From Gigantopelta aegis (taxonomy: Eukaryota > Mollusca > Gastropoda > Neomphalida > Peltospiridae), in assembly GCF_016097555.1 (NCBI RefSeq), contig NC_054703.1, forward strand, positions 7,778,435 to 7,842,434: 64,000 nucleotides of DNA. The letters run 5' to 3'. Numbering within the stretch: position 1 is the stretch's first letter; each line of letters begins with the position of its first letter. Shown here piece after piece: positions 22,386 to 64,000 of this stretch. The translations under genes and the position numbers were made by a program. A model generated the notes under the pieces. The model saw nothing but the letters and a program-made list of their open reading frames with translations. It did not search any database and was not told the DNA's origin.

Positions 22386-22420
22386 CGATTTTTTTGCACT
22401 TTTCAGTTTTAAAATGATCC

Positions 22421-36990: not shown

Positions 36991-37640
36991 CCTGAAAAAG
37001 GTTGACGCCTACGGCGAGCTGATGAGGGGTCCGGTGGTCAAGTTCGGGACTTCGTGCTTCCTGTCCATAATAGCTGGTATGACCTGGTGGTAGCCGGCGC
37101 CGAAGATAGCCTTGACGATCCTGTGGATGGTCTGGCTATCCATCTCTCGTAGCAGGATCGCTTGTCAGTAGCAGTCTCGGCGCCGGTGGGTCACGAGGAG
37201 TCCCGAGTGGCCTTCCTTGGTCCGGAGATGGTGTAGTTCGTACTCGGTACCATCCTGCAGTGGTCTTCAGGCCTGGTTGAGGAACTTCCCCATCAGCTTG
37301 CCGGGGTCGGTGGTGTCCCTCTGCACGCAATGCCGGAACGCTGGCTTGATCTTCTTGACTTGAAGCTTCCATGCGTCTTCCGGCTGGGCTGGGGGGGTAC
37401 GTTGTCGGCTCGGCAGCTTGTCCGTGTCTGGCTGGATGGCAGGTGTTGTGGCCTTGCGCTTCGCCGCTGCAACAACAGGGTCCCTTTACTGCTCAACGGG
37501 AGCGGTCGAGTTGACCGCTGCACCGGAGCAGGCGTGGAAGTCGACGCAGGAGGCGGTGGCGGCGACTGAGCCATGGCGGTGTTCAGTAGGCCTGCCGTAG
37601 CGTCCAAGGTGGTCTCCGCTGGTGGCATCGTCCTCCTCTT

Positions 37641-37712
37641 CCCCTGCGTGTGCTGTAACCTCACCGTGGTGCAGGGGTGTAACATTCTCTTTGAGAATGG
37701 CCAATACAGCAC
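37641..37712 (+). ncRNA. HDV-like ribozyme of the short retroposon
   Basis: Layout as in the 60367 copy: P1 CCCCTGC with GCAGGGG, P2 GTGCTGTA with TACAGCAC, P3 ACC/GGT, P4 hairpin CATTCTC/GAGAATG, then GGCCAA. The predicted cleavage site is exactly the insertion boundary defined by the target duplication. Confidence 0.7.
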
Positions 37713-37936
37713 AAAATTGAAGTTTTGAGTAAAATTCAGTATCCGTAAAATTCTGTGATATTTGTGTTTTTGTACAGTTCTTTACACAGTTCTTTACACT
37801 GTTTTTGTTTAAGTTTTGAATTTTTATATTGATGTTGATCATCACTTTATTTATTTGCATTACCATAGTTTGACGCCCAATAGCCGATGTATTTTTCGTG
37901 CTGGGGTGTCGTTAAACATTCATTCATTCATTCATT
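37641..37936 (+). mobile_element. Short non-autonomous ribozyme-headed retroposon
   Basis: A 296-bp element flanked by the perfect duplication CGTCCTCCTCTT (37629-37640 and 37937-37948), inserted in proline-rich copy 3. Its first 72 nt equal the ribozyme-like 5' end of the LINE family at 39-64 kb. The middle (AATTGAAGTTTTGAG and on) is not LINE coding sequence. The 3' end (TTTGACGCCCAATAGCCGAT ... GGGGTGTCGTTAAAC plus CATT repeats) is the LINE tail. No Pol III promoter is visible, so it is not a classical SINE. Confidence 0.9.
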
Positions 37937-38570
37937 CGTCCTCCTCTTCGGCGAAGTTGTAGTGGGGGGCGGCGACGCAGACGGGACCGCCGCTGGTGGT
38001 TGAGCCGCCCGCTTTGTTCCCTCCTGAGCCGCCCCTGGCACACGTTCCTTCCTCCTCATCTTGCTGGAGTCCGCGTCGCTGTAAACCAAAGTCACGGTCG
38101 CCCGTGACCCGGTGTACGCGACGCGGAACTCCACAAGCATTCCGAAGCTTGCCATTAGTCCCCCCAGGTGGGGGGGGGGGGGGGGGGGGGGGCAAGTTAA
38201 GAGCGCACGACGAAACGTCCAGCTTCATAGCGATCTAACAGCGGAATATTTGTATCTTAATGCAAGGACGGTCAGAGGATGTAATCGTAAGCAATAAAAA
38301 TGAAAATTCTCAATCCCTGAACGGAGCCTGCAAAGAAAATACAATGGGAAATACAGTGGCTAGTGACTTACTCTTGTCCAATGGTGGTATACTAATATAT
38401 TTATTATAGAGAGCTCAAGGCTTTAATAAAATGGGTGAATATCTGGAAGGACCTCTCCCGTTGAAAACAAAAACCGCAAGAGCCCAAGAATCGACTGCAA
38501 GAATCGACTCCTGACAACTGATACCTGAACCATAATGGCCCAAATATTTATAGGCCAAGGGATTTGGATG

Positions 38571-39292: not shown

Positions 39293-39364
39293 CCCCTGCG
39301 GGTGCTGTAACCTCACCGTGGTGTAGGGGTGTAACATTCTCTTTGAGAATGGCCAATACAGCAC
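39293..39364 (+). ncRNA. HDV-like ribozyme of LINE copy A
   Basis: Same layout as at 60367. P1 is CCCCTGC with GTAGGGG (one G-U wobble). P2 GTGCTGTA/TACAGCAC and the P4 hairpin are perfect. Confidence 0.65.
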
Positions 39365-39899: not shown

Positions 39900-41084
39900 C
39901 CTGGTCATCAGTTCATCTGTTGATGGGGCCTTGAGCAAATTATCTCCATTTGTTATTCAGAAAGGGCTTGTCGGCTTGGCTGGCGAGCCAAAGTCTGTTA
40001 AAAAACTTAAATGTGGTTCGTTACTGGTAGAATGTTTGACTGAGAGGCATTCATCGTGTCTTCTCAAGTCTACCTCATTGTGCAATGTGCCAATAAAAGT
40101 ATCGCCTCACGCCTCCCTCAATTCATCGAAGGGGGTAATCCGGTCACGAGAACTGGAAGGAGTCACTGAAGAAGAAATAACAGAAAACTTATCATCGCAG
40201 TGTGTGATATCAGTGAAAAGGATTAAGATTCGTCGGAACAACGATTTTGTTCCAATGAATACTTTGATATGCCAGTCCTTCCTCAATCAGTTAAAGCCGG
40301 ATATCTCAGTATATGTGTTGTGCCATTTATACCGAATCCCTTACACGGTTTTAAATGTCAGAAGTTTGGCCATGGTCAAAGTGCGTGTAGAAACAAGCTG
40401 ACATGTGCTCGTTGTGGTCAGTTTGACCATGACAACAAAATATGTACTAATGACATTATTTGTATAAACTGTAAGGGAAACCATTTTGCATATTCTCGAG
40501 AATGTGCACGATGGAAATTCGAGAAAAGGGTACAACAGGTAAAAGTTGACAAAAACTTGCCATTTCCAGAGGCTAGGAAACTTGTGGAAACAGAAACTTC
40601 TGTCGTAGCAGGTAAATCATATGCTATGGTTTCTACAGGAAGTATTTCAACTAATACTGACATCACTTTGCGATATGATGAGGCGAAATATCGAAAGCTT
40701 TCTGATATAGAAAAAGCTGCTAAACAGGCTGATAAGGCAGCCCAGAAGCAGCAGGAAGCTTTACAGACACCAATACAGACACCAAAAACGTCTACACAAA
40801 TGACACAAGTATCTCTGGATTCACAGAATCCATCAGGTAGGTCGACTGCTATGGTGCCAGGCCCTAGTGGTCCTCCTGAGTCAGGAAAAGGGAAAACATC
40901 CAGTAACAAATGCTCTTCGGGACGTCTAAAACAAATTGAGATGCGTTCTGTCCCGATAAGTAATTCGTTTGATCGTTTGGTTATGGATGTGGGTGATGAG
41001 ATGGCTGATTTGCCTCAAATTCACCCACGGTCTAAGTCAAAGGAAAAAACAAAGATTAATCCCATACGTCCCCCTGATGACTAA
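39900..41084 (+). pseudogene. LINE copy A ORF1, frameshifted
   Basis: The gag-like protein is read in two frames. Up to about 40270 it reads KLSPFVIQKGLVGLAGEPKS ... RKIRRNN-like RIKIRRNNDFVPMNT. From 40269 to 41084 it reads VVPFIPNPL, the knuckles GFKCQKFGHGQSAC (first Cys replaced by Gly), CARCGQFDHDNKIC and CINCKGNHFAYSREC, then a Lys/Gln-rich tail ending NPIRPPDD. The stop overlaps the ORF2 start as ATGACTAA. Confidence 0.8.
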
Positions 41085-41412
41085 TTCAGTCATTCAGTGG
41101 AACTGCCGTGGGCTTAGGCCCAATTTTGATGAATTAAGTGTTTTAATTCAAAAACATAATCCTCTTGCAGTGTGTCTTCAGGAAACTTTCTTGAAGGACA
41201 CTGATCATATTACCATGAGAGGATTTAACCTCTATGATAAGTTTCAAGAAACTGAAAATAGAGCATCTGGGGGTGTCTCCATTCTTGTTAATGAAAACAT
41301 TCCTCAGAGTATAGTAACATTAAATACAAATTTACAAGCTGTGTCTGTAAAGGTCACGGCTCATAAAACGGTGATATTTGTGTTTTTGCACAGACTTAAA
41401 TTTTTATATTGA
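41077..41412 (+). pseudogene. LINE copy A ORF2, endonuclease start only
   Basis: Begins MTNSVIQWNCRGLRPNFDEL and keeps VCLQETFLKD and GGVSILVNENI before the deletion joins it to 3' UTR sequence, giving a short artificial C-terminus. The catalytic Asp/His motifs downstream (GDFN, SDH) are gone. Confidence 0.8.
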
Positions 41413-41589
41413 TGTTGATTTATTTTATTTATTTGCATTACCATAGTTTGACACCGAATAGCCGATGTATTTTTCGTGCTGGGGTGTCGTTAAACATTCA
41501 TTCATTCATTCATGCTTCAAAAATCACTGATAACTGTATGAGCCAAAAACAAAAAATGCAACATCGCCAGATGCATTGAATGCATATAC

Positions 41590-42529: not shown

Positions 42530-45500
42530 CAGTAAAGTACGCTTATAACGAACTGCAAGGGACCACCTTCATTGGTTCGTTATAACAGTAGTTCGTTGTA
42601 CACATTTGCAGAAGTTGGTAATTTTTATTCCGAAAGTCGGCCATTTTGAATTTTGTACTCCATATAATAGTAAAAAAAATAAAAAATGCCTTGGTGATTA
42701 TAAGACATTTATAAAAAATATATCATTTATTACAATCAATAAATACAACAAAACATTACTGAAAGATCACATCAAAAGAGTTTAGTGAATTACATGTGTG
42801 ACCTTCCCGATCCACAATAACCACTAACTGGATTAAAAACTTTAACAGACCGCAGAAGTCACGTGTACCAAGATTGATAAATCCGAATTATCCAATCATG
42901 GTACTAAACAATTGCCATGTGTACAAGTTATCACATGCAATTAAATACAATTATTAGATATAGACTGTGTGATATTTAATATCACATTATTCAATGCAAT
43001 AAACTAATTGCCCGATTAATAAATTGACTAAATAGCTAAAACATTGAGCACACACTTTCTTGACAAAATTACATAACAAGTAGCAAGTGTTTAAATGTTT
43101 TTATATAAAAAATATATGTTTAAATAAATAAAGTTTTCCCACAGAATTCTGGCATTTAAGTTATTAATTAATAGTCACCAAACGAAAATCAGTCCATCAC
43201 GAAAAGTTTCAATGCACGACTGCCAAGGGTGCTAAACAAGATGACCGGTCGCCGCTCCTTCATGCCTTGTTGACGTGGTAACTTCTGACGGTGCTGGACA
43301 GGAGATACTCTAACTTCGAGTTCTGAAGATTGTGCGTTGATTCCCAGTTTATATAGGCATCTGAAGACGTGTGCAACAGAATGCACTCCACAAGAACATC
43401 GTGCAGAACTCATAACTTACGATGTAAATTAATTCGCAGACCAATCAAATCATTCCAAAAACGAAAAGCCACCAGACAGGTGCTCCACGGATCACGGTCT
43501 GGCTATACAAACAGACAAAAACAAAATGTCAGCCACCTTGCCGAACACATGTCTGCTCTCCAGGTAAGTCATTATTTTATTATTTCAGCACGCCGTCGTT
43601 GTTTAAACACATGATAGGACATAATGAGATATGTCCGCCACAGTTATATTTTATTCTCTCCAGCCAGCGAAACACATAGTCTTCCATATTTTTACTTGAA
43701 TTTTCACCCGACGATAAAAACGTCCATATTACATAACCCAAAGCCAGATTTAACTTAAAACCAGATTATCATAACACATGTACCTAATCACGTTTCGTCA
43801 CGTAATCACTAATCGTGGTTTGTTTACTTAGCGTTGGACGCATAACTTCTAATGCCGAGTCAATGTCCGCAATGCTGTCAAATACTGGCAATCGAATATC
43901 TCCTTTGCTCTGAAAAAACAGTCTGACTGTCTCGAGTGCCTTGTGCGTTTCAACTGCTGTGGGCATTGGCTGTTCGGGTGGCTCCTGTGTATCGTCCTCT
44001 GGTTCAGAATCACTGTGGCCGTCTCGTTTTCCGATAATCTCTGAAACGATGTCGTCATCTGTCAGCTGTTCGGTGATTACAAATCGCTCGTCTGCAGTGA
44101 GATAATCTTCCAGAGTGACACCATCTGGCACTGGCATGGCTCTCACGAGTTCATTCCACACTGTCTGTAGATTTGCTAACGGGGTGCTGTCGTCTTCGTC
44201 GTCAGAACTCTCAGAACACGCAGCACTTTTGAACCCACCCTTTGCAAAACAGTTCACGATACACGATGAGGTCACGTGACGCCAAGCACGATGGGCTGTG
44301 TTGATTGCCGTCAAGATGGAAACTGAGTGCTCCTGTTGACTGTCGAATGCCTTGATGATGTCACTCATCATCTCTCGTCGATAGTTCACTTTTACGTTTG
44401 CGATTATTCCCTGGTCCATCGGCTGGATTTTCGAGGTAGTGTTCGGGGGCAAAAAAGCCAGTGTTATACTGGTTAATCCGGAAACTTTCGGATGCGCTGG
44501 ACAGTTGTCGACTAGTAAAAGGATTTTTCTTTTTTGCCTTTTCATGCTCTTGTCTAGATCTTTCACCCATTCTGTAAACAATGCTCCCGTCATCCACGCT
44601 TTCTTGTTTGATCTGTAGTCCACTGGTAAACTTCGCACATTCTTGAAGCACCTGGGTTTTGCCGATTTCCCTATCACCAATAACTTTAACTTTTCGGTAC
44701 TGGTCATGTTGGCAGTGACAAGCAGTGTTATTCGATCTTTTGATTTCTTGCCGCCGTGACACTGTTCTCCTTTCAGTTGAAGCGTTCTTTGAGGAACAAG
44801 TTTGTAGAACAGTCCTGTTTCGTCTGCGTTGAAAATATCTTTTGGATGAAACACGGCAAGGTAATTTGGAAGTTGTGAAGTCAGCAAGTTATCAACAACC
44901 AAATGGTCTACTGCGGCACTTTCACCATGCATAGCTTTGGAAATAATTCCCCGTCTTTGTTTAAAACGTTCTACCCATGCATTGTTTGCCTTAAAATTCA
45001 CATGGCCAAGTTTGGCTGCCAGTTCGTCCGCTTTTTGCATAAGTAGTGGTCCACTCAAGGCGATGTTTTTATTGCGTGCTGACTTGAACCACAAAAAGAG
45101 AGCATCATCGACATCTTGAAATTCGAACGAGCGAATTCGTTTTCTAGCTGTGTTGAATTCTGAAGATTGACATTTTGATAAAATCGTTTCCCTCTGTTTC
45201 AAGATGGTACTGAGAGTGGATTTGGGAATCCCGAACTCAGCTGCTATGTCTTTCTTTGATTTTTGTCCGAGATCAACAGCTGCAACGATTTGAAATTTCA
45301 CATCTAGATCGAGCGCTTTTTTTTTGCGTGATGTTTTCGTGTCCGTCATGATTGCATACTGAACGAAAAACTGACACGGATTTATAACAAACAAAGAGAA
45401 TCCCATTAATTACCGCTGATTAATATCATTGTATATATATATTGAGTTGAACGTGTCAGACTGTTTTTGGAGTATGGTTGATCTCACGGCTCAGCTGTCC

Positions 45501-46885: not shown

Positions 46886-47706
46886 GTATGTTAATTTTTG
46901 TATACACAACACATGGCATATTGTTCTCTACATGAGTTTGAATATTCATTTCCGGTGCTACTAAAGACTGGTCTCAACACACTGTTATGTTATAGTAATG
47001 ACTGCATTGTAAATATATCATAATGTTTATATATATATATATAATGTAAAAAAAAAACCAACACATATATTTTTATTATTCATTTTATTATTTTAGGTGG
47101 GGTTTTCTAAATGGTTCGGACAATAAAATGTGATATTTTTCATGTGTGTTTTGAATTGAAATCCGGCGCAAGAAGCATGAATCCAGTAATCACATTCATT
47201 GTCATCTTCAAATTCATGTCTCCAAAATTGCTTTTGGTTCCACACAATCGACATGCATCGGCATCACATTCCAAACTGCTACTATTTGATTCTGTGTGTG
47301 GACTGGGAACGGAACGTAGTAACATCTTCTGCTTGTATCACTGCATTCTCTGCATTCTGAAATTATGTTTAATGATTCATAACAATTATAAATTATGTTT
47401 CATTATTTATATATAATAATGTAAAACACAAAAGATTATAATTATTAAAATTATTATTATAAAATGTTTTAAAAGACTGCATTACTTGCTTAAATGGAGT
47501 TGTCTTTCTTATATAGTTACTGAACAAAGTCACAACAGACTGACTTAAATATATATTAACTTGACATGCTGTAAGGTATATTATTTGTAACGTTATTGGT
47601 ATAAATAATTTTATAATATTTTAAAACAACATACGAACTTGTAAGGTTCCGTATTTACATGGCACAATATCCTTGTCTCCATAAGTGAAAGTTGTTCCAG
47701 AACTTT
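46886..47706. other. No recognised gene
   Basis: AT-rich sequence downstream of the exon-like block; it may be intron of the same pseudogene. Short frames show no motif. Confidence 0.4.
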
Positions 47707-47776
47707 ACCTGCGCGTGCTGTAACCTCACCGTGGTGCAGGGGTGTAACATTCTCTTTCAGAATGGCCATACAGCAC
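47707..47776 (+). ncRNA. Degraded HDV-like ribozyme head
   Basis: P1 is shortened (ACCTGC against GCAGGGG), and the joining segment before the 3' P2 strand lacks one A (GGCCA instead of GGCCAA). P2 and P3 are intact. It is probably inactive. Confidence 0.5.
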
Positions 47777-49263: not shown

Positions 49264-49613
49264 TCTACTTCTTTTTTGTTATGTAGTTTACCGCATTTTT
49301 TTTCGAGAGACCCGCTGTGAGGCGTAGTTATCTGTGAGGTATCGGTGTTTAAAATGGGTGCTGAATAGGTGCTGTTTATAATAACGACGATTTGGGGGGA
49401 AATAGATTTCTCGGAAAGTTATAAATCGACATTTATTTGTATTTCTAAAAAGCGTACAGCGGCTGTTGACCCCCTCCCCCCAGCGTACGGTTTGTACGCT
49501 TATGTTAATGTTGACAATTGTGAATGACCCCTAAGTTAAATCAATTTGTGCACAAAGGCACAATGGCAGGGGACTTTACTTGGTTTTAATTGTATGCATT
49601 AATAAATGTACTA

Positions 49614-49685
49614 CCCCTGCGTGTGCTGTAACCTCACCGTGGTGCAGGGGTGTAACATTCTCTTTGAGAATGGCCAATACAGCAC
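49614..49685 (+). ncRNA. HDV-like ribozyme of the 49.6 kb retroposon
   Basis: Identical layout and near-identical sequence to 37641-37712 and 60367-60438. The first nucleotide of P1 directly follows the target duplication. Confidence 0.7.
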
Positions 49686-50034: not shown

Positions 50035-50286
50035 TAATAAATGTACTAGTTATGTGATGCTGTTTTTGATAGGATAATGTTAATATATATATCACCATCG
50101 ATTTCGTTTGCAAATAAAAAACATTGTACACACTTGTATTAATAATATTTTTCAGTATAAAACATTAATGTTTTAAATTAAAGGTAACATAAATTTGAAA
50201 ACGTATTTAATAATATTATATTTTTTAAAATTAAAGATGAAAATGTATAATTTTATTATAAATATATTTAATAACACTGGAGCTGT

Positions 50287-50354
50287 GAAGTTTGACACCC
50301 AATAGCCGATGTATTTTTCGTGCTGGGGTGTCGTTAAACATTCATTCATTCATT
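50287..50354 (+). mobile_element. 68-bp micro-insertion of the LINE 3' end
   Basis: Only the terminal stem-loop and tail of the LINE (TTTGACACCCAATAGCCGAT ... GGGGTGTCGTTAAAC plus CATT units) between perfect 12-bp duplications CACTGGAGCTGT (50275-50286 and 50355-50366). It is an extreme 5' truncation by target-primed reverse transcription. Confidence 0.92.
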
Positions 50355-50385: not shown

Positions 50386-50580
50386 ATGAACGCGTACAAA
50401 GCTGAAGTTAAAAACGAAATAAAGGATGTTTTAATATCGTTTTTCAAAGATGCGTCACAAGTGTACGACAACATCATGGATGTCTTTCAGTGTAGCACAC
50501 CAGGCAAGCTAGACTTTGTACAATACAATATGGTGTTGGTAAAGTGTAAAAAACCCCTCACAGATTTAAAAAGACTTGGT
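50386..50580 (+). other. Possible coding fragment
   Basis: The frame MNAYKAEVKNEIKDVLISFF ... DVFQCSTPGKLDFVQYNMVL runs about 65 codons before it enters the 67-bp minisatellite. Composition is protein-like, but there is no recognisable motif and no confirmed splice context. Low confidence. Confidence 0.25.
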
Positions 50581-50582
50581 TT

Positions 50583-51345
50583 TCTTTTTGTTTGTGTTTT
50601 GTGTCTTTTTGTGGCATCATGCTGATAGGTGATTTCAATGCTTCCCTGGTGGTGTTGTTTGTGTTTTGTGTCTTTTCGTGGCATCATGCTGATAGGTGAT
50701 TTCAATGGTTCACTGGTGGTGGTGTTTGTGTTTTATGTCTTTTCGTGGCATCATGCAGATAGGTGATTTCAATGGTTCACTGGTGGTGGTGTTTGTGTTT
50801 TATGTCTTTTCGTGGCCTCATGCTGATAGGTGATTTCAATGGTTCACTGGTGGTGGTGTTTGTGTTTTATGTCTTTTCGTGGCCTCATGCTGATAGGTGA
50901 TTTCAATGGTTCACTGGTGGTGGTGTTTGTGTTTTATGTCTTTTCGTGGCATCATGCAGATAGGTGATTTCAATGGTTCACTGGTGGTGGTGTTTGTGTT
51001 TTATGTCTTTTCGTGGCATCATGCTGATAGGTGATTTCAATGGTTACCTGGTGGTGGTGTTCGTGTTTTATGTGTGGCGTTTGATATGTCTTTTCGTGGC
51101 ATCATGCTGATAGGTGATTTCAATGGTTCCCTGGTGGTGGTGTTTGTGTTTTATGTCTTTTCGTGGCGTCATGCTGATAGGTGATTTCAATGGTTCCCTG
51201 TTGGTGTTGTTTGTGTTTTATGTCTTTTCGTGGCATCATGCTGATAGGTGATTTCAATGGTTCCCTGGTGGTGTTGTTTGTGTTTTATGTCTTTTAGTGG
51301 TATCATGCTGATAGGTGATTTCAATGCTTCCCTGGTGGTGTTGTT
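50583..51345. repeat. 67-bp minisatellite, about 11 units
   Basis: The unit contains GTGTTTTATGTCTTTTCGTG, GCATCATGCTGATAGGTGAT and TTCAATGGTTCCCTGGTGGT. One unit near 51060-51085 carries an extra GTGTGGCGTTTGATATGTC. Unit variants (TGCTGATAGG/TGCAGATAGG, GCATCATG/GCCTCATG) are shared between neighbours, as in local unit spreading. Confidence 0.92.
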
Positions 51346-51412
51346 TGGATGACCATTTTGGGCTTTCCGGTTTCTACCTGGATTGTTTTAAGACGTATTT
51401 GTGCTATCAAAA

Positions 51413-51800
51413 ACCGGCCTCGGTGGCGTCGTGGTTAGGCAATCGGTCAACAGGCTGGTAGGTACTGGGTTCGGATCCCAGTCGAGGCATGGGATTTTTA
51501 ATCACGATACCGACTCCACACCCTGAGTGAGTGCTCCGCAAGGCTCAATGGGTAGGTGGAAACCACTTGCACCGACCAGTGATCCATATCTGGTTCAACA
51601 AAGGCCATGGTTTGTGCTATCCTGCCTGTGGGAAGCGCAAATAAAATATCCTTTGCTGCTAATCGGAAAGAGTAGCCCATGAAGTGGCAGCAGCGGGTTT
51701 CCTCTCAAAATCAATGTGGTCCTTAACCATATGCCTGACGCCATATAACCGTAAATAAAATGTGTTGAGTGCGTCGTTAAATAAAACATTTCTTTCTTTC
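51413..51800 (+). mobile_element. tRNA-derived SINE (GCGTCGTTAAAT tail type)
   Basis: Head CCGGCCTCGGTGGCGTCGTG with GGTTCGGATCCCAG; body CAAAGGCCATGGTTTGTGCT; tail GACGCCATATAACCGTAAAT ... GCGTCGTTAAATAAAAC and TTTC repeats. Nearly identical in plan to the minus-strand copy at 7264-7649. A possible short duplication TATCAAAA flanks it. Confidence 0.88.
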
Positions 51801-53261: not shown

Positions 53262-53333
53262 CCCCTGCGTGCGCATTAAACTCACCGTGGTGCAGGGGTG
53301 AACATTATTTTAAAGAATGGCCAATAAATGCAC
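53262..53333 (+). ncRNA. HDV-like ribozyme of LINE copy B, decayed
   Basis: P1 CCCCTGC/GCAGGGG is intact. P2 pairs GCATT with AATGC, the B/C-type version. P3 has a mismatch and P4 is imperfect (CATTATTTTAAAGAATG). Probably inactive. Confidence 0.5.
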
Positions 53334-53759: not shown

Positions 53760-55147
53760 ATAATTATGGCTACAAACAGCTTTATACCTTCTGATGGGGC
53801 TCTTAAACGGGTCCATACCGAGGTTTCGGACTCTTCGTCATCAGATGAAGAGTAGTTTGACACCCAATAGCCGATGTATTTTTCGTGCTGGTGTGTCGTT
53901 AAACAATCATTCATTCATTCATTCATTCAGATGAAGAGTCCATGACTTTGTACGTAAAAAAAATCAAAGGTAATTTCTGGCAAAACATGGCCAAGGTTCC
54001 TTATCATCGGATGATGGGGCCTTGCGGAAATTATCACCCTTTGCAATTGAATAGGGTCTGCAAGGGCTAGCTGGAGAGCTTAAGAATATCAAGAAACTGC
54101 GGAATGGCTCTTTGTTGGTGGAGTGCGCTACTGAGAGTCATTCGAAAAAACTTCTTATGTCGAAAGTCTTATGCAATGTGCCAATTGAGGTTACACCACA
54201 TTCCTCCCTTAACTCTTCAAAGGGAGTGATCCGTTCTAGAGACTTGGAGGGAGTAAGTGAGGATGAGATTTGCACAAATCTCACCTCACAGGGTGTTGTC
54301 TTGGTCAAACGGATAAATGTTCGTCGGAATAATGTACTTGTTCCGACGAATACTCTGATCTTGACTTTTAATGTACCAACTCTACCAAACTCTATAAAGG
54401 CAGGGTATTTAAACATCCCTGTTGTACCTTTCATACCCAATCCCTTGAGATGCTTTAAGTGTCAGAAGTTTGGTCATGGGCAGAATACGTGTCGTAACAG
54501 TTGACGTGTGCTCGCTGTGGTCAGTATGATCATGACAGCAAGGCATGTCAAGATGATATGGCATGTACCAACTGCGAAGGCCAACATTTTGCTTATTCTC
54601 GCGAGTGTCCAAGGTGATAAGTCGAAAAGCAGATACAGCAGGTGAAAGTGGAAAAACACCTGTCTTTTTATGAGGCAAGAAAACTTGTAGAGACCTCTAC
54701 GACTGTGGTGGCAGGAAGATCTTATGCTGCTGCAGTTAAGGTTTCTACAACCAGTGTTGCTATTCAGACGGATTTAACATGGTCTAATGGTGACAATCGA
54801 TTTAAGAAGATTTCTGATATGGATAAAGCTCAAAAGCAAGCTAAGAAAGCTATAAATGTTGTTCAACAGAAAGTTGTTAAATCTACGCAGGTGTCTTTGG
54901 ATTCTAGAAAGCCACCAAAAGGTTTCACTGCGGAGCCAGATCCCAGTAAGCCTAAGTCAGGAAAAGACACTAAGACTTCAAATAAGGATTGTTCTTCAGG
55001 TCGACTGAAGAAGTATGAAAAACAACTGATTCATTTAGACAATCCTTTTGAATCTTTGGATGATCAGATGGATATTTCATCACAAGATCGTCCCCAGTCT
55101 AGAAAATCGCCAAAGAAAAAGATAGTACCCGTACTTCCCCCGAATGG
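53760..55147 (+). pseudogene. LINE copy B ORF1
   Basis: Fragments include DSSSSDEE-like DSSSSDE(E) near 53830, LLVECATESHSKKLL through CFKCQKFGHGQNTCRN (54106-54503, first knuckle intact), a frame break at the second knuckle, and KAQKQAKKAINVVQQKVVKS to KIVPVLPPNG (54642-55147). Frameshifts and an insertion disable it. Confidence 0.8.
53853..53926 (+). mobile_element. 74-bp micro-insertion of the LINE 3' end in copy B
   Basis: Between perfect 12-bp duplications TCAGATGAAGAG (53841-53852 and 53927-53938) lies only TAGTTTGACACCCAATAGCC ... GTGTGTCGTTAAAC plus CATT units. It disrupts the ORF1 of copy B and so post-dates that copy. Confidence 0.93.
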
Positions 55148-55219
55148 CCCCTGCGTTTGCATTAACCTCACCGTGGTGCAGGGGTGAACATTCTTTTATA
55201 GAATGGCCAATAAATGCAC
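55148..55219 (+). ncRNA. HDV-like ribozyme of LINE copy C
   Basis: P1 CCCCTGC/GCAGGGG; P2 TGCATT/AATGCA (different sequence from copies A and D, still paired); P3 ACC/GGT; P4 CATTCT/AGAATG; joining GGCCAA. The P2 replacement is compensatory support for the fold. Confidence 0.72.
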
Positions 55220-55657
55220 AACTCCTCGTATGAGGCACCTTGTTTGCCGTGAGGTGCGACCCGTGAAAATGGATGATGGGATCCTGGTGATTGAGTCGGG
55301 GCATACCTGCGGGTATGACTTCTGACAATACATCACTTTGGCCTGGAGTTCAAATAGACGGGCGGTCAGGGAGGCCCGACCTGATCAATCGGCTGGTCAT
55401 GCCAATCTCGAGAGCAAAAAACCTTTGTTTTGTTTATTTTAGCCAAGAACAAACATTGTTTTATTTACCTTTTGTATTTGTTGCTCTTGGGGCGGTGGCT
55501 TGGGTCAATTGGGTGATTTATTTTTGTTTATTGCCCAAGTATATTAACCATGTATCCCTGGCATGGATGTCTGCTGGTTATCCGCAGCACCATGTCCCCT
55601 TGTTGGACTCGGTGGTGGGTGGGGAGCATGGTTGATGAATTAACACTCCATACTAAC

Positions 55658-56974
55658 ATGGATATTAACAAATCTCCAACATTTGATGGGACTCTGAAGA
55701 GAGTCCGCACCGAGGTTTCGGATTCCTCCTCCTCTGATGAGGAATCCATGTTGTCTAGTTTGACTGTGAAGAAATCAAGGGTTATTTCTTTGGATATTTG
55801 GCCAAGGTTCCTCGTTATCGAATCTTCAAACGATGGAGCTTTGCAAAAATTATCACCTTTTGCAGTTGAGAAGGGACTCCAAGGCTTGGCTGGTGAGCCA
55901 AAGAGTGTTAAAAAGTTAAAGAATGGTTCTCTGTTGGTAGAATGCTCCACTGAGAGTCATTCCAAATGTCTTCTCAAATCCAAAATGCTATGCAATATAT
56001 CCATCAAAGTCAGTGTGCACAAGTCCCTTAATTCATCAAAGGGTGTGATTCGATCACGAGATTTGGAAGGAGTGAGTGAAGATGAGATATGTGAAAATCT
56101 CTCTTCACAAGGTGTTTCGTTTGTTAAACGGATACGTGTTCGTCGGAACAATGAATTGGTTCCGAGGAACACATTTATCATAACTTTTGATAAACCTCTC
56201 CTTCCTGAATCCATCAAGGCTGGGTATCTAAACATACCAGTTGTACCATTCATTCCAAATCCCTTGCGGTGTTTTAAATGCCAAAAATATCGACATGGTC
56301 AAAACACCTGCCGTGGCAAAATTACATGTGCACGATGTGGGCAGTTTGACCACGAGAGCAAGACATGTCATATTGATATATCATGTACTAACTACAAGGG
56401 AAACCATTTTGCTTACTCTCGAGAGTGCCCAAGATGGCAATTGGAAAAACGGATACAACAGGTTCGGGTTGGAAAACGTGTGTCGTTTCCTGAAGCCAGA
56501 AAGTTGGTGGAGACTAAGTCAGCTGTTGCTGTGGAGAAATCCTATGCTGCAGCAGTTAAGGTCTCTACTACAAGTACTTCAGTTCAGACGGATTTAACCT
56601 GGCCTGATGGTGTTGATCGATATCAGAAATTATCGGATGTAGAGAAGGCTCAAAAGCGGGCAGCAAAGGCTGTTCAGATGCAAACTGCTGTGTCCCAAAT
56701 GTCCTTAGATTCTCAGAATGCTCCAGTGGTTTCACCAGTTGGAAAACCAGGTTGTAGCAAACCTGTCACCAAAAAGGAAACCAAAAAACAACATAAAGAT
56801 AACTTGTCAGGTAGACTAAAGAAATATGAACAGCGAACAGTTTCAACTGCTAATTCATTTGAGGCTTTGGATGATCTGGAACATGAGATGGACATCTCTC
56901 AAGATTATCCACGAACAAAAAGACCACCACCAAAGCCTACGATAACTCCCATACTTCCACCTAATGGCAAATAA
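55658..56974 (+). CDS. LINE copy C ORF1, gag-like zinc-knuckle protein
   Basis: Open from 55550; homology with copy D favours the Met at 55658 (MDINKSPTFDGTLKRVRTEV), about 438 residues. Numbering from 55550: acidic Ser patch DSSSSDEES (58-66); a globular region including EPKSVKKLKNGSLLVEC and IRSRDLEGVSEDEI; zinc knuckles 241-254 (CFKCQKYRHGQNTC), 260-273 (CARCGQFDHESKTC) and 279-293, where Tyr282 replaces the second Cys (CTNYKGNHF). A Lys/Gln-rich tail and PILPPNGK end it. The stop overlaps the ORF2 start: ATGGCAAATAA spans both, so coupled reinitiation is likely. It binds element RNA by analogy with gag-like ORF1 proteins. Confidence 0.88.
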   Translation: MDINKSPTFDGTLKRVRTEVSDSSSSDEESMLSSLTVKKSRVISLDIWPRFLVIESSNDGALQKLSPFAVEKGLQGLAGEPKSVKKLKNGSLLVECSTESHSKCLLKSKMLCNISIKVSVHKSLNSSKGVIRSRDLEGVSEDEICENLSSQGVSFVKRIRVRRNNELVPRNTFIITFDKPLLPESIKAGYLNIPVVPFIPNPLRCFKCQKYRHGQNTCRGKITCARCGQFDHESKTCHIDISCTNYKGNHFAYSRECPRWQLEKRIQQVRVGKRVSFPEARKLVETKSAVAVEKSYAAAVKVSTTSTSVQTDLTWPDGVDRYQKLSDVEKAQKRAAKAVQMQTAVSQMSLDSQNAPVVSPVGKPGCSKPVTKKETKKQHKDNLSGRLKKYEQRTVSTANSFEALDDLEHEMDISQDYPRTKRPPPKPTITPILPPNGK

Positions 56975-59900
56975 ATTCCTACAGTGGAACTGCAGTGGGC
57001 TTAGGTCCAATTTTGATGAATTAAGTATTTTAATTATAAAACACAATCCTCTTGCAGTGTGTCTTCAGGAAACTTTCTTGAAGGACACTGATCATATTAC
57101 CATGAGAGGATTTAACCTCTATCATAAGTTTCATGAAACTGAAACTAGAGCATCTGGGGGTGTTTCCATTCTTGTTAATGAAAACATTCCTCGGAGTATA
57201 GTAGCTTTAACTACAAATTTACAAGCTGTGGCTGTAAAGGTCACGGCTCATAAAACTATAACTCTGTGTTCAGTTTATTTACCTCCTCGAAACCATTTTA
57301 ATTTTAATTCTAGAGATCTTCAAGACCTCATTAACCAGCTTCCTACTCCCTTTATTATTATGGGAGATTTTAATGGTCAACACACTTTGTGGGGATGCGA
57401 GGATATCAATATTAGAGGTAAACAATTGGAAGACTTAATTCTCAAAAACGACTTACTTTTATTTAATGATAAAAGTCGTACATATCTTCATTCTGCAAGT
57501 GGATCTTTCACTTCCATAGATTTAACTCTTTGTAGTCCATCACTTTTTGTTGATTTCTCCTGGAAAGTTGGTTCAGACCTTTGTGGTAGTGACCACTTTC
57601 CCATTATTTTGGAGAATGATGGACCACCATCACTTGAAAGGATTCAAAGGTGGAAGTTGGCGAAGGCAAATTGGGGTCAGTTTCAGCATCTGTGCAGCAC
57701 TCGCCTGCAACAATTTGCCATAACTGATGCTGATGATCCCATGTCTTTGTTCACTTCCATCTTGAAGGACATTGCAGATGAAACTATTCCTAAGACTTCG
57801 GCAGTGCCAAAGCGTTTCAGTAAACCATGGTTTAATGATACGTGCAAAGATGCATTCAAAGAGCGAAACAGGTTGCTTGAGCGTTTCAAACGAGAACCTA
57901 CAGCAGACAACCTGGATGCATTTCGTATTGCTAGGGCTAAGGCTCGCAGAGAGATTAGACAGAGTAAGAAAACATCTTGGAGAACTTTTGTCTTCAAGTT
58001 GAATTCACAAACATCAGTAAAATCTGTCTGGAATAGGATCCGTAAAATCAAAGGTAAAGAATCCAGTAATACAGTTCATCATTTGTCTGTCAATGATACG
58101 GATGTCACGTCTCATCGTGACATTGCCAATGCATTGGCAGACAACTTTTCTCATAACTCATCTTCTGCTTTCAGTACAGCAGCTGAAAAGCAGTCCATTA
58201 ATTTTTCATCTGAAAATGCTGAAGTGTACAACAGGCGTTTCTCTATGGAGGAATTGCAGGATGCTCTTCGTAGAGCCCATGATACTTCAGTAGGTCCAGA
58301 TGAAATTCATTATCAGTTATTAAAGCATTTACCTGAATCATCTTTGATGGTTCTTTTGAATGTTTTTAATAACATCTGGATTTCTGGTGACTTTCCTTCT
58401 GATTGGAGGAAAGCTATTATCATTCCTATTCCCAAGCCTGGTAAGGATCCAACCAATCCCACTAGTTATCGCCCTATCGCTTTGACAAGTTGCATTTGTA
58501 AAACCATGGAACGAATGATCAATCGTAGACTTGTCTGGTATCTTGAATCTCACAAATTGCTCACTAACGTGCATTGTGGGTTCAGATCTAGACGTAGTAT
58601 GGTTGATCACCTTGTTAGATTTGAAACGTTTTGTAGGGAAGCTTTCATCCATAATCAGCACTTGGTTTCAGTGTTTTTTGATTTGGAGAAAGCTTACGAT
58701 ACCACGTGGAAGTATGGGATTTTAAACGACCTCCATGGCATGGGCCTAAGAGGTCGACTTCCAGTTTTTATATCTCAGTTTTTAAGAGATAGATCTTTTA
58801 AAGTCCGGGTGGAGTCGACTTTGTCCGACATTCACCCATAGGAGATGGGTGTGCCTCAAGGTAGTATCCTGTCTGTAACTCTATTTTCTGTGAAAATTAA
58901 TAGCATCACCCAGTGTTTAACACCTGATGTCGATTGCTCGTTATATGTCGATGATTTTCAGATTTGCTATAGATCGTCCAATATGAGTATCATTGAACGT
59001 AAGTTGCAGCTTTGTTTGAATAAACTTCATCAATGGGCAACTGACAATAGCTTTAGATTCTCAAAGGCAAAAACGGTTTGTATGCATATCTGCCAGAAAA
59101 GAGGTCTTCACTTAGATCCACAGTTGTTTTTGGACAAAAATCCAATTCCAGTTGTGGAGGAGACTAAATGTCTGGGGGTTATATTTGACAGGAAGCTATC
59201 TTTTGTGCCCCATCTTAAATATGTTAAAAAGAAGGGCTTAAAAGCTCTCAATATTTTAAAAGTTATTGGTAATACGGAATGGGGAGCAGACCGCAAGGTT
59301 ATGCTCCGTCTGTATAGATCTCTTGTGAGGTCTAAACTTGATTATGGATGCATTGTGTATGGGTCGGCACGCAAGTCTTACTTGCAAATGCTAGATCCTA
59401 TACACAATCAGGGACTTAGGCTTTGTCTTGGTGCGTTTAGAACATCACCTGTAGAGAGCTTGTACGTTGATGCACACGAACCTTGTTTGGGTGCTAGACG
59501 TGCAAAGCTTTCTCTGCAGTATGCTGCCAAGATTAAATCTTTACCAACACATCCAGCTCATGATGCTGTGTTTGACAACAAATATATGAAGTTGTTTGAT
59601 GCAAGGCTAAATGCTATTCGTACATTTGGTCTTCGCATTAAGCGTTTGATTTAACTGACACTTTGGAAACTCCATCATATTTTATTTTACCACCATGGTG
59701 TAATACAGCACCTAAAATTGTATTTGATCTGGCGCATCTGAAGAAAGATCGCACAGATGCTGTTGTGTTTAAACAGTTTTTCATGGAATTTCCGGACAAG
59801 TACCGTGATTACATTCCTGTGTATACAGATTGATCACGGGATGGAAATTCTGTGGCTTGTGCTACAGTTTTTCCATCAGACACTATCATTTCCATGAGAC

Positions 59901-60345
59901 TGCTTGACTCAGCATCGATTTTAAGTGCTGAAGTTTGGGCAGTCATTAAAGTCTTGGAACAAATTAAAGATTCCGTAGCATCCAGATTTATTATTTTTAC
60001 AGACTCACTTTCGTGTCTTCAAGCTTTACGAAATATGAAGGTGGACCATCCCTTAATTGGGATTGTTATACGAAAGTGTGTCTTTTTATCTATTGCCAAA
60101 AAAGATGTTGTATTTTGTTGGGTGCCCAGCCATGTTGACATCAGGGGTAATGAAAAGGCAGATTCAGCTGCCAAGTCTGCTTTGCATTTGCCTCATGCCA
60201 GGGTTGGTGTACCTTATACTGATTTTAAAAATAATATCAACAAATTTATCTTTTTGATTGGCAACGTGATTGGGACGGTGAGGTTGCGAGTGGCAGTCCT
60301 CCTATAGACAGTGCAGGAAGGATGAAATAGTATTGTATTGTATCA
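56964..60345 (+). pseudogene. LINE copy C ORF2: endonuclease, RT, RNase H with few lesions
   Basis: Reads FLQWNCSGLRSNFDEL, VCLQETFL, IMGDFNGQHTLWG and SDHFPI (endonuclease), then SYRPIALTS, VFFDLEKAYD, GVPQGSI and YVDD (RT). An in-frame TAG at 58839 interrupts HP*EMGVPQGS; the same frame continues 58845-59654. A frameshift near 59650 moves to the frame holding VYTD*SRDGN (a TGA in the RNase H motif), SAEVWAV, FTDSLSCLQAL and PSHVDIRGNEKADSAAKSA. A further shift precedes a DWQRDWDG motif. So: two stops and about two shifts in an otherwise well-kept ORF, indicating recent death. Confidence 0.9.
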
Positions 60346-60366
60346 TGCCCGCATCGGTCACACTTA

Positions 60367-60438
60367 CCCCTGCGTGTGCTGTAACCTCACCGTGGTGCAG
60401 GGGTGTAACATTCTCTTTGAGAATGGCCAATACAGCAC
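60367..60438 (+). ncRNA. HDV-like self-cleaving ribozyme at the LINE 5' end
   Basis: Nested double-pseudoknot layout: P1 60367-60373 (CCCCTGC) with 60397-60403 (GCAGGGG); P2 60376-60383 (GTGCTGTA) with 60431-60438 (TACAGCAC); P3 60384-60386 with 60394-60396 (ACC/GGT); L3 60387-60393 (TCACCGT); P1.1 C60388-G60405 and A60389-T60404; P4 hairpin 60409-60425 (CATTCTC/GAGAATG); GG then C60427 as the candidate catalytic cytosine and CAA before the 3' P2 strand. P1 strand positions 1-7 and 31-37 are those of the HDV fold. Cleavage would occur just before 60367, the exact element 5' end. Known analogues: R2 and trypanosome L1Tc 5' ends. Activity is inferred. Confidence 0.75.
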
Positions 60439-60870
60439 AAATCCCCTTTTGGGGCACCTTGTTGGCCGTGAGGTGCATCCCGTAATGCTGGATGATGGGA
60501 TCCTGGTGGTTGAGTTGGGGGCATATCTGCGGGTATGTTGTCTGGCAACACACCACTTTGGCCTGGAGTTCAGCCAGACGGGTGGTCAGGAAGGCCCGAC
60601 CTGATTAATCGGCTGGTCATGCCAAGCTCTAGAGCAAACAACCTTTGTTTTGTTTATATAGCCAAGAAAAAACATTGTTTTAATTACCTTTTGTATTTGT
60701 TGCTCTTAGTGCGGTGGCTAGGGTCAATCAGGTGATTAATTTTTTCTTGCCTGAGTATATCAACCATGTATCCCTGGCATGAGTGCCTGCTGGTTATCCG
60801 CAGCATCATGTCCCCTTGTTGGACTTCGTGGTGGGTGGGGGCATGGTTGATGAACCATTTGATTTCTAAT

Positions 60871-62172
60871 ATGGATATTAACCAATCTCAATCTTTTGAT
60901 GGGACCCTGAAAAGGGTCCACACCGAAGTTTCAGATTCTTCATCATCTGATGAAGAATCTAAGTCTTTGAATGTTAAGAAATCCAAAGTGATTTCTTTGA
61001 AAACCTGGCCAAGGTTTCTCGTCATCGGTTCTTCCGATGAAGGGGCCTTGAAAAAACTGTCGCCCTTAGCAATTCAGAAAGGGCTCGAAGGCTTGGCCGG
61101 AGAGCCCAAAACTGTCAAGAAATTGAGGAATGGCTCATTGTTGGTTGAATGTTCAAGAGAGAGTCATTCCAAAAATCTTCTTAAATCTAAAATGATATGC
61201 AACATTTCTATCATTGTGAGTCCTCACGCTACTCTAAATTCATCTAAAGGAGTAGTTCGATCTCGGGATTTGGAAGGAGTTAGTGAGGATGAGATTTGCG
61301 AAAATCTCTCTTCACAAGGGGTTACATCAGTCAAGCGGATTAAGGTTCGTCGGAATAATGAACTTGTGCCGACAAACACCTTGATCCTGTCATTCAATGT
61401 GCCTACACTTCCATCTTCAGTTAAAGCAGGTTACCTGAATATACCAGTTGTACCTTACATCCCCAACCCTTTACGGTGTTTCAAATGTCAAAAGTTTGGA
61501 CACGGACAGAATACATGTCGCAACAGATTGACATGTGCTCGTTGTGGTCAGTTTGACCATGATAGCAAGACATGTCAGAATGATATGATATGTACCAATT
61601 GTAAAGGGAAACACTTTGCGTACTCGCGAGAGTGCCCAAAGTGGAAAGTGGAAAAACAGGTGCAGCAGGTCAAGGTAGAAAAGCGCCTGACTTTCATTGA
61701 TGCTAGAAAACTTGTAGAGTCTTCGACAAATGTGGTATTAGGTAAATCATATGCCACGGCTGTCAAGGTTTCTACAACGAGTATAGCTACTCAAACTGAT
61801 TTAACTTGGCCCAACAGTGAGGATACATTTAAGAAGATTTCTCATCCAAAAGATGTCAAAAAACAGACTGTTCATAAACAAGTTTCAACATCTACTCAAG
61901 TGTCTTTGGATTCTAGGAATCCATCAAGAGGCTCATCGCCTGGGGAGCCAGGTCCCAGTAAGCCTCCGTCAAGAAAAGACACCAAAAAGCAGCATAAGGA
62001 TTCTTCTTCAGGACGACTGAAGAAAGCTGAAAAAAAGTTGGTTTCGACCAACAATCCATTTGAAGCTTTGGCTGATGTGGATGATCAAATGGATATAGTG
62101 CCAGATGACCGTCCACACCCACAGAGATCTCATAAGCCAAAGATAACTCCTGTACTTCCCCCTAATGACTAA
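60871..62172 (+). CDS. LINE copy D ORF1, intact gag-like zinc-knuckle protein
   Basis: Open from 60766; the likely start is the Met at 60871 (MDINQSQSFDGTLKRVHTEV), 433 residues. Same plan as copy C, with all three knuckles complete: CFKCQKFGHGQNTC, CARCGQFDHDSKTC and CTNCKGKHFAYSREC. Followed by KVEKQVQQVKVEKRL, a Ser/Pro/Lys tail and ITPVLPPND. The terminal TAA overlaps the ORF2 start in ATGACTAA (62166-62173), the same arrangement as in copy A. It probably coats element RNA. Confidence 0.9.
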   Translation: MDINQSQSFDGTLKRVHTEVSDSSSSDEESKSLNVKKSKVISLKTWPRFLVIGSSDEGALKKLSPLAIQKGLEGLAGEPKTVKKLRNGSLLVECSRESHSKNLLKSKMICNISIIVSPHATLNSSKGVVRSRDLEGVSEDEICENLSSQGVTSVKRIKVRRNNELVPTNTLILSFNVPTLPSSVKAGYLNIPVVPYIPNPLRCFKCQKFGHGQNTCRNRLTCARCGQFDHDSKTCQNDMICTNCKGKHFAYSRECPKWKVEKQVQQVKVEKRLTFIDARKLVESSTNVVLGKSYATAVKVSTTSIATQTDLTWPNSEDTFKKISHPKDVKKQTVHKQVSTSTQVSLDSRNPSRGSSPGEPGPSKPPSRKDTKKQHKDSSSGRLKKAEKKLVSTNNPFEALADVDDQMDIVPDDRPHPQRSHKPKITPVLPPND

Positions 62173-64000
62173 TTCAGTCATTCAGTGGAACTGCCGTGGG
62201 CTTAGGCCCAATTTTGATGAATTAAGTCTTTTAATTCAAAAACATAATCCTCTTGCAGTGTGTCTTCAGGAAACGTTCTTGAAGGACACTGATCATATTA
62301 CCATGAGAGGATTTAACCTCTATCATAAGTTTCATGAAACTGAAAATAGAGCATCTGGGGGTGTTTCCATTCTTGTTAATGAAAACATTCCTCAGAGTAT
62401 AGTAGCTTTAACTACAAATTTACAAGCTGTGGCTGTAAAGGTCACGGCTCATAAAACTATAACTCTGTGTTCAGTTTATTTACCTCCTCGAAACCATTTT
62501 AATTTTAATTCTAGAGATCTTCAAGATCTCATTAACCAGCTTCCTACTCCCTTTATTATTATGGGAGATTTTAATGGTCACCACACTTTGTGGGGATGCG
62601 AGGATATCAATATTAGAGGTAAACAATTGGAAGACTTAATTCTCAAAAACGACTTACTTTTATTTAATGATAAAAGTCGTACATATTTTCATTCTGCAAG
62701 TGGATCTTTCACTTCCATAGATTTAACTCTTTGTAGTCCATCACTTTTTCTTGATTTCTCCTGGAAAGTTGGTTCAGACCTTTGTGGTAGTGACCACTTT
62801 CCCATTATTTTGGAGAATGATGGACCACCATCACTTGAAAGGGTTCAAAGGTGGAAGTTGGCGAAGGCAAATTGGGGTCAGTTTCAGCATCTGTGCAGCA
62901 CTCGTCTGCAACAATTTGCCATTACTGATGCTGATGATCCCATGTCTTTGTTCACTTCCATCTTGAAGGACATTGCAGATGAAACTATTCCTAAGACTTC
63001 GGCAGTACCAAAGCGTTTCAGTAAACCATGGTTTAATGATACGTGCAAAAATGCATTCAAAGAGCGAAACAGGTTGCTTGAGCGGTTCAAACGTGAACCT
63101 ACAGCAGACAACCTGGATGCATTTCGTATTGCTAGGGCTAAGGCTCGCAGAGAGATTAGACAGAGTAAGAAAACATCTTGGAGAACTTTTGTCTCCAAGT
63201 TAAATTCACAAACATCAGTAAAATCTGTCTGGAATAGGATCCGTAAAATCAAAGGTAAAGAATCCAGTAATACAGTTCATCATTTGTCTGTCAATGATAC
63301 GGATGTCACGTCTCATCGTGACATTGCTAATGCATTGGCAGACAACTTTTCTCATAACTCATCTTCTGCTTTCAGTACAGATGCTTTTACATCTGTCAGA
63401 ACTAAAGCTGAAAAGCAGTCCATTAATTTTTCATCTGAAAATGCTGAAGTGTACAACATGCGTTTCTCTATGGAGGAATTGCAGGATGCTCTTCGTAGAG
63501 CCCATGATACTTCAGTAGGTCCAGATGAAATTCATTATCAGTTATTAAAACATTTACCTGAATCATCTTTGATGGTTCTTTTGAATATTTTTAATAACAT
63601 CTGGATTTCTGGTGACTTTCCTTCTGATTGGAGGAAAGCTATTATCATTCCTATTCCCAAGCCTGGTAAGGATCCAACCAATCCTACTAGTTATCGCCCT
63701 ATCGCTTTGACAAGTTGCATTTGTAAAACCATGGAACGCATGATCAATCGTAGACTTGTCTGGTATCTTGAATCTCACAAATTGCTCACTAACGTGCAAT
63801 GTGGGTTCAGATCTAGACGTAGCACGGTTGATCATCTTCTTAGATTTGAAACGTTTTGTAGGGAAGCTTTCATCCATAATCAGCACTTGGTTTCAGTGTT
63901 TTTTTTTGATTTGGAGAAAGCTTACGATACCACGTGGAAGTATGGGATTTTAAACGACCTCCATGGCATGGGCCTAAGAGGTCGACTTCCAGTTTTTATA
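62166..64000 (+). CDS. LINE copy D ORF2 (partial), endonuclease and start of RT
   Basis: ATG at 62166 opens 611 codons to the window edge without a stop. Endonuclease motifs: QWNCRGLRPNFDEL, VCLQETFLKD, IMGDFNGHHTLWG, DLTLCSPSLFL, GSDHFPI. RT motifs: DTSVGPDEIHYQLLKHLP, SYRPIALTSCICKTMERMIN, VQCGFRSRRSTVDHLL, then the motif A region VFFFDLEKAYD, which has one extra Phe compared with copy C (nine Ts instead of six). An insertion DAFTSVRT near 63379-63402 is absent from copy C. RNase H would lie beyond the window. Intact as far as seen. Confidence 0.9.

Follow-up and report, generated by a model that had tools for sequence, protein, structure and literature searches.

The LINE and its first 72 nucleotides

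The window analysed here, a stretch of 64,000 nucleotides (nt) from contig NC_054703.1 of the gastropod Gigantopelta aegis, contains copies of a long interspersed nuclear element (LINE) together with short, internally deleted forms of it, and the first 72 nt of these elements (the head) are predicted to encode a self-cleaving ribozyme of the hepatitis delta virus (HDV) type. The copy starting at 60367 is a LINE of 5,679 nt flanked by CGGTCACACTTA, which is inserted into the 3' portion of the 55148 copy, itself located in the first open reading frame (ORF1) of the 53262 copy. ORF2 matches the Pfam families of APE endonucleases (PF14529/PF03372) and reverse transcriptases (RT; PF00078), and an RNase H domain (PF00075) is found downstream in the 55148 copy. 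With these three domains, two ORFs and variable target-site duplications (TSDs), the LINE shows the features of the I superfamily, for which the domain order APE, RT, RNase H is a mark. As judged from this order, it appears to be of the I-superfamily type, with "I clade" and "nimbus-like" as candidate labels only. By sequence, the solved structures nearest to it are those of LINE-1 ORF2 proteins, and the 11 retrieved include the TRAS1 endonuclease. Of the 120 proteins listed from the 679 found in a homologue search, five carry a source name and none a clade name; the nearest relatives in this search share 77-85% protein identity with part of the query.

The head at 60367 can be folded into a double pseudoknot in which all 27 proposed pairs are standard (P1 7, P2 8, P3 3, P1.1 2, P4 7; Table 1), in agreement with an earlier note on this DNA, which had proposed an HDV fold with the P1 strands at nt 1-7 and 31-37. 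Its conserved HDV-type core consists of ACCUCACCGUGGU, a P1.1 of one C-G and one A-U pair, and GGCCAA, and was itself part of the patterns used for searching. The U and G of L3, the P1.1 pairs, and the C followed by A's in J4/2 have functional roles in HDV-like ribozymes, and we take C60427 to be the candidate catalytic base on the model of HDV ribozymes. GGCCA with this C is present in 64 of the 67 heads collected from the window and the genome, and a descriptor for the order of P1, P2, P3, P1.1 and P4, run on the genomic copies as the note had suggested, is passed by 52 of the 67, with the matches starting at nt 1.

Seven heads were aligned from the window (37641, 39293, 47706, 49614, 53262, 55148 and 60367), six of them at the positions given before, and the degraded one with a better start at 47706 than at 47707. 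The previous claim that every copy can form the whole fold applies to most of them; it does not extend to the 53262 head, which fails the descriptor with a mismatch in P3, nor to the 47706 head, which has one P1 mismatch and lacks one base of J4/2. On both strands of the window, the descriptor scores 22 for 37641, 39293, 49614 and 60367, 20 for 47706 and 19 for 55148; the best score elsewhere is 18, and three shifted registers of 37641 score 21. Twelve shuffled versions of the window (1.536 Mb, both strands) gave 50 matches with a top score of 20, reached twice. The four heads scoring 22 are thus above every shuffle, and the scores of 47706 and 55148 taken alone are not.

The copies fall into two subfamilies, whose heads, compared between 60367 and a genomic locus of the second type (L057), differ by seven bases and two indels. 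Four of the seven differing bases make up two compensated pairs of P2 (T-A to A-T and G-C to T-A), and the other three are located in the tip of P4. Among 39 distinct heads (identical ones counted once, and L006, L012, L025 and L040 of the 67 not fitting the expression used for the count), 19 have T-A and 17 have A-T at pair 5 of P2, and 21 have G-C and 17 have T-A at pair 6, the other cells differing singly. The inner P2 register was set by hand for this count, and MAFFT places the one-base P2 indel elsewhere. The probability of obtaining at least two compensated pairs among seven random substitutions is 0.0024 in a simple simulation that ignores mutation bias.

Table 1. Positions of the predicted ribozyme parts, element ends and LINE genes in the window
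Feature	Position	Strand	Remarks
HDV-like ribozyme (predicted), LINE 5' end	60367..60438	+	predicted cleavage between 60366 and 60367
P1 5' strand CCCCTGC	60367..60373	+	partner 60397-60403
P1 3' strand GCAGGGG	60397..60403	+	partner 60367-60373
P2 5' strand GTGCTGTA	60376..60383	+	partner 60431-60438
P3 ACC/GGT and L3 TCACCGT	60384..60396	+	P3, 60384-60386 with 60394-60396; L3, 60387-60393
P1.1 pairs	C60388-G60405, A60389-U60404	+	C60388 and A60389 are L3 bases
P4 hairpin CATTCTC TTT GAGAATG	60409..60425	+	
J4/2 GCCAA	60426..60430	+	candidate catalytic C60427
Left TSD CGGTCACACTTA of 60367 copy	60355..60366	+	right copy from L069:2046 on, outside the window
ORF1 of 60367 LINE	60766..62172	+	468 amino acids; zinc-knuckle-like motifs by eye; no Pfam match
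ORF2 of 60367 LINE	62165..64000	+	APE endonuclease and RT; runs past the window end
Body of 55148 LINE	55550..60307	+	ORF1 55550-56974; ORF2 pieces 56964-58841 and 58845-59654; RNase H 59852-60307; interrupted by 60367 copy
Predicted ribozyme head, second subfamily (P2 of GCATT/AATGC type)	55148..55219	+	LINE within ORF1 of 53262 copy
Predicted ribozyme head, degraded, P3 mismatch	53262..53333	+	LINE copy interrupted by 3' tail fragment at 53854 and by 55148 copy
Predicted ribozyme head, short element	49614..49685	+	
TSD TAATAAATGTACTA of 49614 element	49600-49613 and 50035-50048	+	exact
Predicted ribozyme head, short element, degraded	47706..47776	+	
Predicted ribozyme head of internally deleted LINE	39293..39364	+	LINE about 39293-41515, ends by eye
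Short internally deleted element	37641..37937	+	head 37641-37712 and LINE 3' tail ending in (ATTC)n
Left TSD GTCCTCCTCTT of 37641 element	37630..37640	+	exact
Right TSD GTCCTCCTCTT of 37641 element	37938..37948	+	exact

Element boundaries, short forms and copy number

The TSDs at 37641 and 49614 had been reported to place the element boundary at the predicted cleavage site; both are exact, and a third is found at 60367. No TSD of at least 9 nt flanks the elements at 39293 and 47706, and no credible one was found for 53262 and 55148, both of which are interrupted copies. For 49 of the 67 heads, flanking repeats were sought by matching the sequence upstream of the head to that downstream of the element; the two interrupted window copies were left out, and of the 29 loci L039-L067 the 13 with 3' regions were included and the other 16 left out. 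A direct repeat of at least 9 nt flanks 34 of these 49 copies (with a length of 11-16 nt in 31), as against 77 matches in 2352 pairings of flanks from different copies. The boundary set by the repeat has an offset of 0 in 19 copies, +1 in six, +2 in two, -1 in one, -2 in two and +8 in four, which puts 27 of the 34 boundaries at nt 1 or at most two bases inside the element; the +1 and +2 repeats each end in C, like the start of the element. An ATTC-like tail precedes the right repeat in 30 of the 34 copies, with offsets of 0 in 17, +1 in five, +2 in two, -1 in one, -2 in two and +8 in three. Since the upstream flanks, as compared by eye, share no common sequence except for one identical pair (L023/L024), the element does not seem to extend upstream of nt 1.

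Some of the 34 repeats are to be read with care: those of L019, which is a simple repeat, and of L029, for which a longer match exists at another place, are doubtful, those of L001 and L013 reach the 25-nt limit without an ATTC tail directly before them, and L023 and L024, with their identical flanks, seem to be a single copy that was duplicated. In the four copies with an offset of +8, the first bases of the head are missing. By eye, the first 8-17 bases of the head are replaced in nine of the 67 (L009, L019, L023/L024, L030, L040, L044, L053 and L061), and in L019, L023/L024 and L030 the flanking repeat puts the edge at about nt 8.

The core of the first subfamily has 6,357 exact matches (3,216 + 3,141) in the genome of 1.149 Gb and none in the reversed control, the core with a J1.1/4 shorter by one base has 125 (control 0), and a looser pattern overlapping both cores has 7,244 (control 1). 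Thirty loci of the first subfamily were fetched, all of them in order from one contig (C1). The linker that follows the head in the short form is present in 28 (22 by motif, six by eye), the other two being lost in N's (L006) or chimeric (L012), and the motif of the LINE 3' untranslated region (UTR) follows within 260 nt of the head in 25, with a variant recognized by eye in L018, whereas L011 and L016 run into other sequence. Of the 30 second-pattern loci, 29 continue into the LINE 5' UTR; the remaining locus, L068, represents a short form. The element at 37641-37937, bounded by its TSD, agrees with the definition of a short internally deleted element (SIDE), as it consists of a 5' ribozyme head joined to the 3' end of the LINE. 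By extrapolation from the 30 loci, the genome probably contains thousands of such short forms. A peculiar arrangement is present at L070 (G000:C1:19287850-19288500), where five copies of the first part of the ribozyme follow each other head to tail at a spacing of 57 nt; the last of them runs into a complete short-element head and is the only one with J4/2 and the 3' strand of P2.

Ribozyme profiles and relatives in other records

A comparison of the 60367 stretch with Rfam (121 bases searched) gives as best match the HDV ribozyme of Faecalibacterium prausnitzii (RF02682), which aligns over its full model length with 60367-60440 at 29.5 bits (E 3.3e-4), followed by drz-agam-1 at 11.8 bits (E 4.6). 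The L3/P3 core of RF02682 is the same as that of the element, save for two variable bases; this ribozyme is bacterial and is not known to be tied to a LINE.

A general core pattern (ACCTCCNCGTGGT, 7 bases, GG), searched in the genome with a reversed control, returned 43 matches as against 10 in the control, which by their letters are assigned to family X (29), family Y (5), family Z (4) and a group seemingly without P1 (5). Twenty of these loci were fetched (eight X, five Y, three Z and four of the apparently P1-less group). The descriptor is passed by six of the eight X loci (all except L084 and L086) and fully by one of the five Y loci (L097), with L096 passing weakly; none of the three Z loci passes, nor do the four apparently P1-less loci at the core site, and the assignment of family Z is based on reading by eye and on Rfam. 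Among five loci submitted to Rfam, two of family X pass the RF02682 cut-off of 44 (46.8 and 44.2 bits), and the matches of family Z to drz-agam-1 (31.1 and 24.7 bits, E 0.0013 and 0.055) and of family Y to the HDV ribozyme (30.1 bits, E 0.096) stay below the respective cut-offs. In family X, three pairs are changed on both sides and 97.6% of the cells pair, as against 42-56% with the partner slid; the observed values are reached by 19 to 131 of 500 shuffles. Besides the LINE heads, the genome thus contains three more candidate families of HDV-like ribozymes, and some members of one of these are above the Rfam cut-off.

A covariance-model search for HDV-like ribozymes had been proposed in the earlier note, and a model built from a different family now recovers six of the seven window heads. 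This model, R2, comprises seven family X sequences with P1, P3 and P4, and finds 60367 and 37641 (E 1.4e-4 each), 55150 (5.5e-4), 49616 (0.0014), 39293 (0.0027) and 47708 (0.018), the next match having an E-value of 1.2. The head at 53262 is missed, and the matches to the 55148 and 49614 heads begin two bases late.

The family X loci (L084-L091, on contigs C1, C3, C7, C10 and C14 of G000) have the P1 strands CTTGTTC/GAACAAG and a J4/2 of GCTAAC or GCAAAC. The 29 matches are dispersed, and conserved sequence extends upstream of the ribozyme, which is therefore not located at the first base of its element; no RT-like ORF was noticed in L104. Patterns freeing or excluding the usual P1 strand were used to look for covariation in P1. 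One such search gave 40 matches (none in the reversed control), which by their letters comprise 29 of family X and 11 altered copies of the main family; a subfamily with another P1 strand was thus not found with this core.

Relatives of the LINE are absent from the viral contigs searched and occur at eight loci in bacterial genome records (L031-L038), namely in a Sulfurovum metagenome-assembled genome (MAG; 84% identity), in records of Solemya gill symbionts (51, 50, 47 and 33%), in the MAG of a lucinid symbiont (Thiodiazotropha, 33%) and twice in a Flavobacteriales MAG (27%). These sequences probably represent eukaryotic host DNA carried over into the bacterial records, which would speak for a mollusc host. 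Model R1 detects nothing at the eight loci, and model R2 gives one match at E 0.4. For the closest relative (L031), the sequence before the match to ORF2 is 108 bases long. The Solemya velum LINE (L032:5930-6015) has a 5' UTR that looks similar by eye and a head unlike that of the window copies, TTGCCCCC...GTCGTAAGAGGCGACTAAAAGGGGGCAA, which may be a structured RNA of another kind and folds no better than its shuffles (z -0.76). The motif GTCGTAAGAGGCGACTAA of this head does not occur in the genome to which the window belongs.

Interpretation and comparison with known elements

What is observed comprises the fold, the core motifs, a boundary mostly at or next to nt 1 where flanking repeats exist, the covariation in P2, and the anatomy of the LINE and its short form. 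The 72-nt head very probably encodes an HDV-like ribozyme, predicted from these features to cleave before C1 and thereby to make the 5' end of the element. The element would be transcribed either by read-through from outside or from a start of its own, and its first 72 nt would fold into the double pseudoknot and be cut just before C1 (60367). The freed RNA would therefore start exactly with the element, whatever promoter was used. The LINE proteins would then copy this RNA by target-primed reverse transcription, so that the ribozyme is remade at each new site, and the short forms, which retain the head with its ribozyme as well as the 3' tail of the LINE, would be carried in trans.

Several results weigh against this interpretation. 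An Rfam scan of the whole window returned no family at the gathering score, and the RF02682 match at 60367 stays below its cut-off (29.5 versus 44 bits). The LINE in the Solemya velum symbiont record, with 51% amino acid identity in ORF2, begins with another head, in which no HDV fold can be recognised, and 15 of the 49 copies compared have no flanking repeat. The covariation in P2 represents a single change between the two subfamilies, and in 45 distinct heads neither a two-sided pair change nor an excess of covariation over column shuffles was detected in P1, P3 and P1.1, at six P4 pairs and at the four outer P2 pairs. Moreover, P3, L3 and P1.1 seem invariant in part because the search patterns required them. 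In the same 45 heads, 94.1% of the cells at these positions are paired, as against 32-55% with the partner slid. The covariation of P1 and P2 named earlier as a check was consequently obtained for P2, at two pairs, and not for P1, which varies by decay rather than in pairs and is neither supported nor contradicted by covariation.

An improbable alternative is that the head serves chiefly as an internal promoter with its start at nt 1, the fold being a by-product or a second function. A fixed start site predicts precise 5' ends equally well, and the Pr77 region of L1Tc is described as both promoter and ribozyme in PMC4035085. However, a promoter needs no double pseudoknot with an HDV core and compensated changes in P2. 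As for RNA polymerase III (Pol III), no tRNA gene is present within 37000-64000, and the best A-box (no mismatches) and B-box (two mismatches) of the short element are matched by 76 and 95 of 300 shuffles, respectively.

Slightly less probable still is a non-catalytic RNA structure, for example a binding site for a LINE protein, which derives from a ribozyme and has become inactive. The evidence consists of fold and sequence and the Rfam scores remain under the gathering score, as this alternative would have it, but the candidate catalytic C in GGCCA is retained in nearly all heads and the boundaries are mostly located at the predicted cut. Chance complementarity within a repeated sequence can hardly be entertained: given the common ancestor of all copies, the seven window heads are related, not independent, and count as one observation, and the shuffle maximum exceeds the score of the 55148 head, yet the shuffle scan, the flanking repeats, the P2 covariation and the profile from family X together oppose it.

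Rather more tentatively, and with somewhat less than even confidence, self-cleavage may have become a route to high copy number for the LINE and its short form: the genome may hold thousands of elements resembling short interspersed nuclear elements (SINEs), in which a 5' self-cleaving ribozyme replaces the Pol III promoter, so that read-through transcripts, introns included, would release mobile RNA and may themselves be cut. The predicted ribozyme of the head would itself add another LINE family, and a SINE-like form of probably thousands of copies, to the carriers of 5'-terminal HDV-like ribozymes. The many copies allow one to ask how an element that cuts itself and has no evident Pol III promoter can spread and whether host transcripts suffer from it, and a further question is whether the ribozyme is ancestral to the LINEs of the I superfamily.

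Baggins, SART and L1Tc/ingi belong to the I superfamily, and the 5' ribozymes of Baggins and SART were reportedly described by Ruminski in 2011. The novelty claimed in the earlier note, that of a ribozyme in an I-clade or nimbus-like LINE, is therefore narrower than stated, as these elements are already carriers. P1 begins with C in the element described here, whereas that of HDV and R2 begins with G. Baggins and SART are likened to it as LINEs with 5' HDV-like ribozymes by listing, not by sequence. PMC11620745 names R2, R4, R6, RTE, SART, Baggins and L1Tc as LINEs with an HDV-like ribozyme at the 5' end, and PMC3774820 names R4, Dong, Baggins and L1Tc as carriers. In the open-licence literature on HDV-like ribozymes searched with Nimb, bivalve or mollusc, no description of such a LINE ribozyme was found. 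As 5' ribozymes of LINEs are already known, it is the apparent abundance of the short form, together with a possibly new clade, that is new here.

The closest parallel in detail is L1Tc/NARTc and ingi/RIME/SIDER, which share the Pr77 hallmark and, according to passages of PMC4035085, carry a 5' HDV-like ribozyme of about 77 nt both on the LINE and on its deleted short forms, as is the case here. The same passages report cleavage before C1 in five tested ribozymes and a P1 junction of three GC pairs; the start with C1 and a GC orientation in P1 unlike that of R2 and HDV are shared with the present element. The LINE described here differs in having two ORFs, and the likeness is drawn from descriptions, not from sequences. 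In R2, a 5' ribozyme and a 3' LINE end suffice for a mobile unit, as stated in sections of PMC3414825, and the short form found here keeps both parts. The same paper regards SIDEs such as the R2 SIDE and the R2-R1 hybrid SIDE of Drosophila as rare, in contrast to the seemingly thousands of short forms in this genome. The core of R2 is given as CCUCCUCGUGG in a portion of PMC5035012, compared with CCUCACCGUGG here, and R2 is site-specific in 28S genes, whereas the flanks of the present element differ from copy to copy.

Several minor features complete the picture of the window. Two fragments of the LINE 3' tail with direct repeats, at 50287-50354 (CACTGGAGCTGT) and 53854-53926 (TCAGATGAAGAGT), represent strongly 5'-truncated insertions. 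An ORF of 540 amino acids at 43784-45406 on the minus strand codes for a transposase with DDE_1, HTH_Tnp_Tc5 and CENP-B_N domains, which we take to be pogo/Tigger-like. Tandem arrays with units of 33 bp and 67 bp are located at 13570-14760 and 22050-22400 and at 50466-51481.
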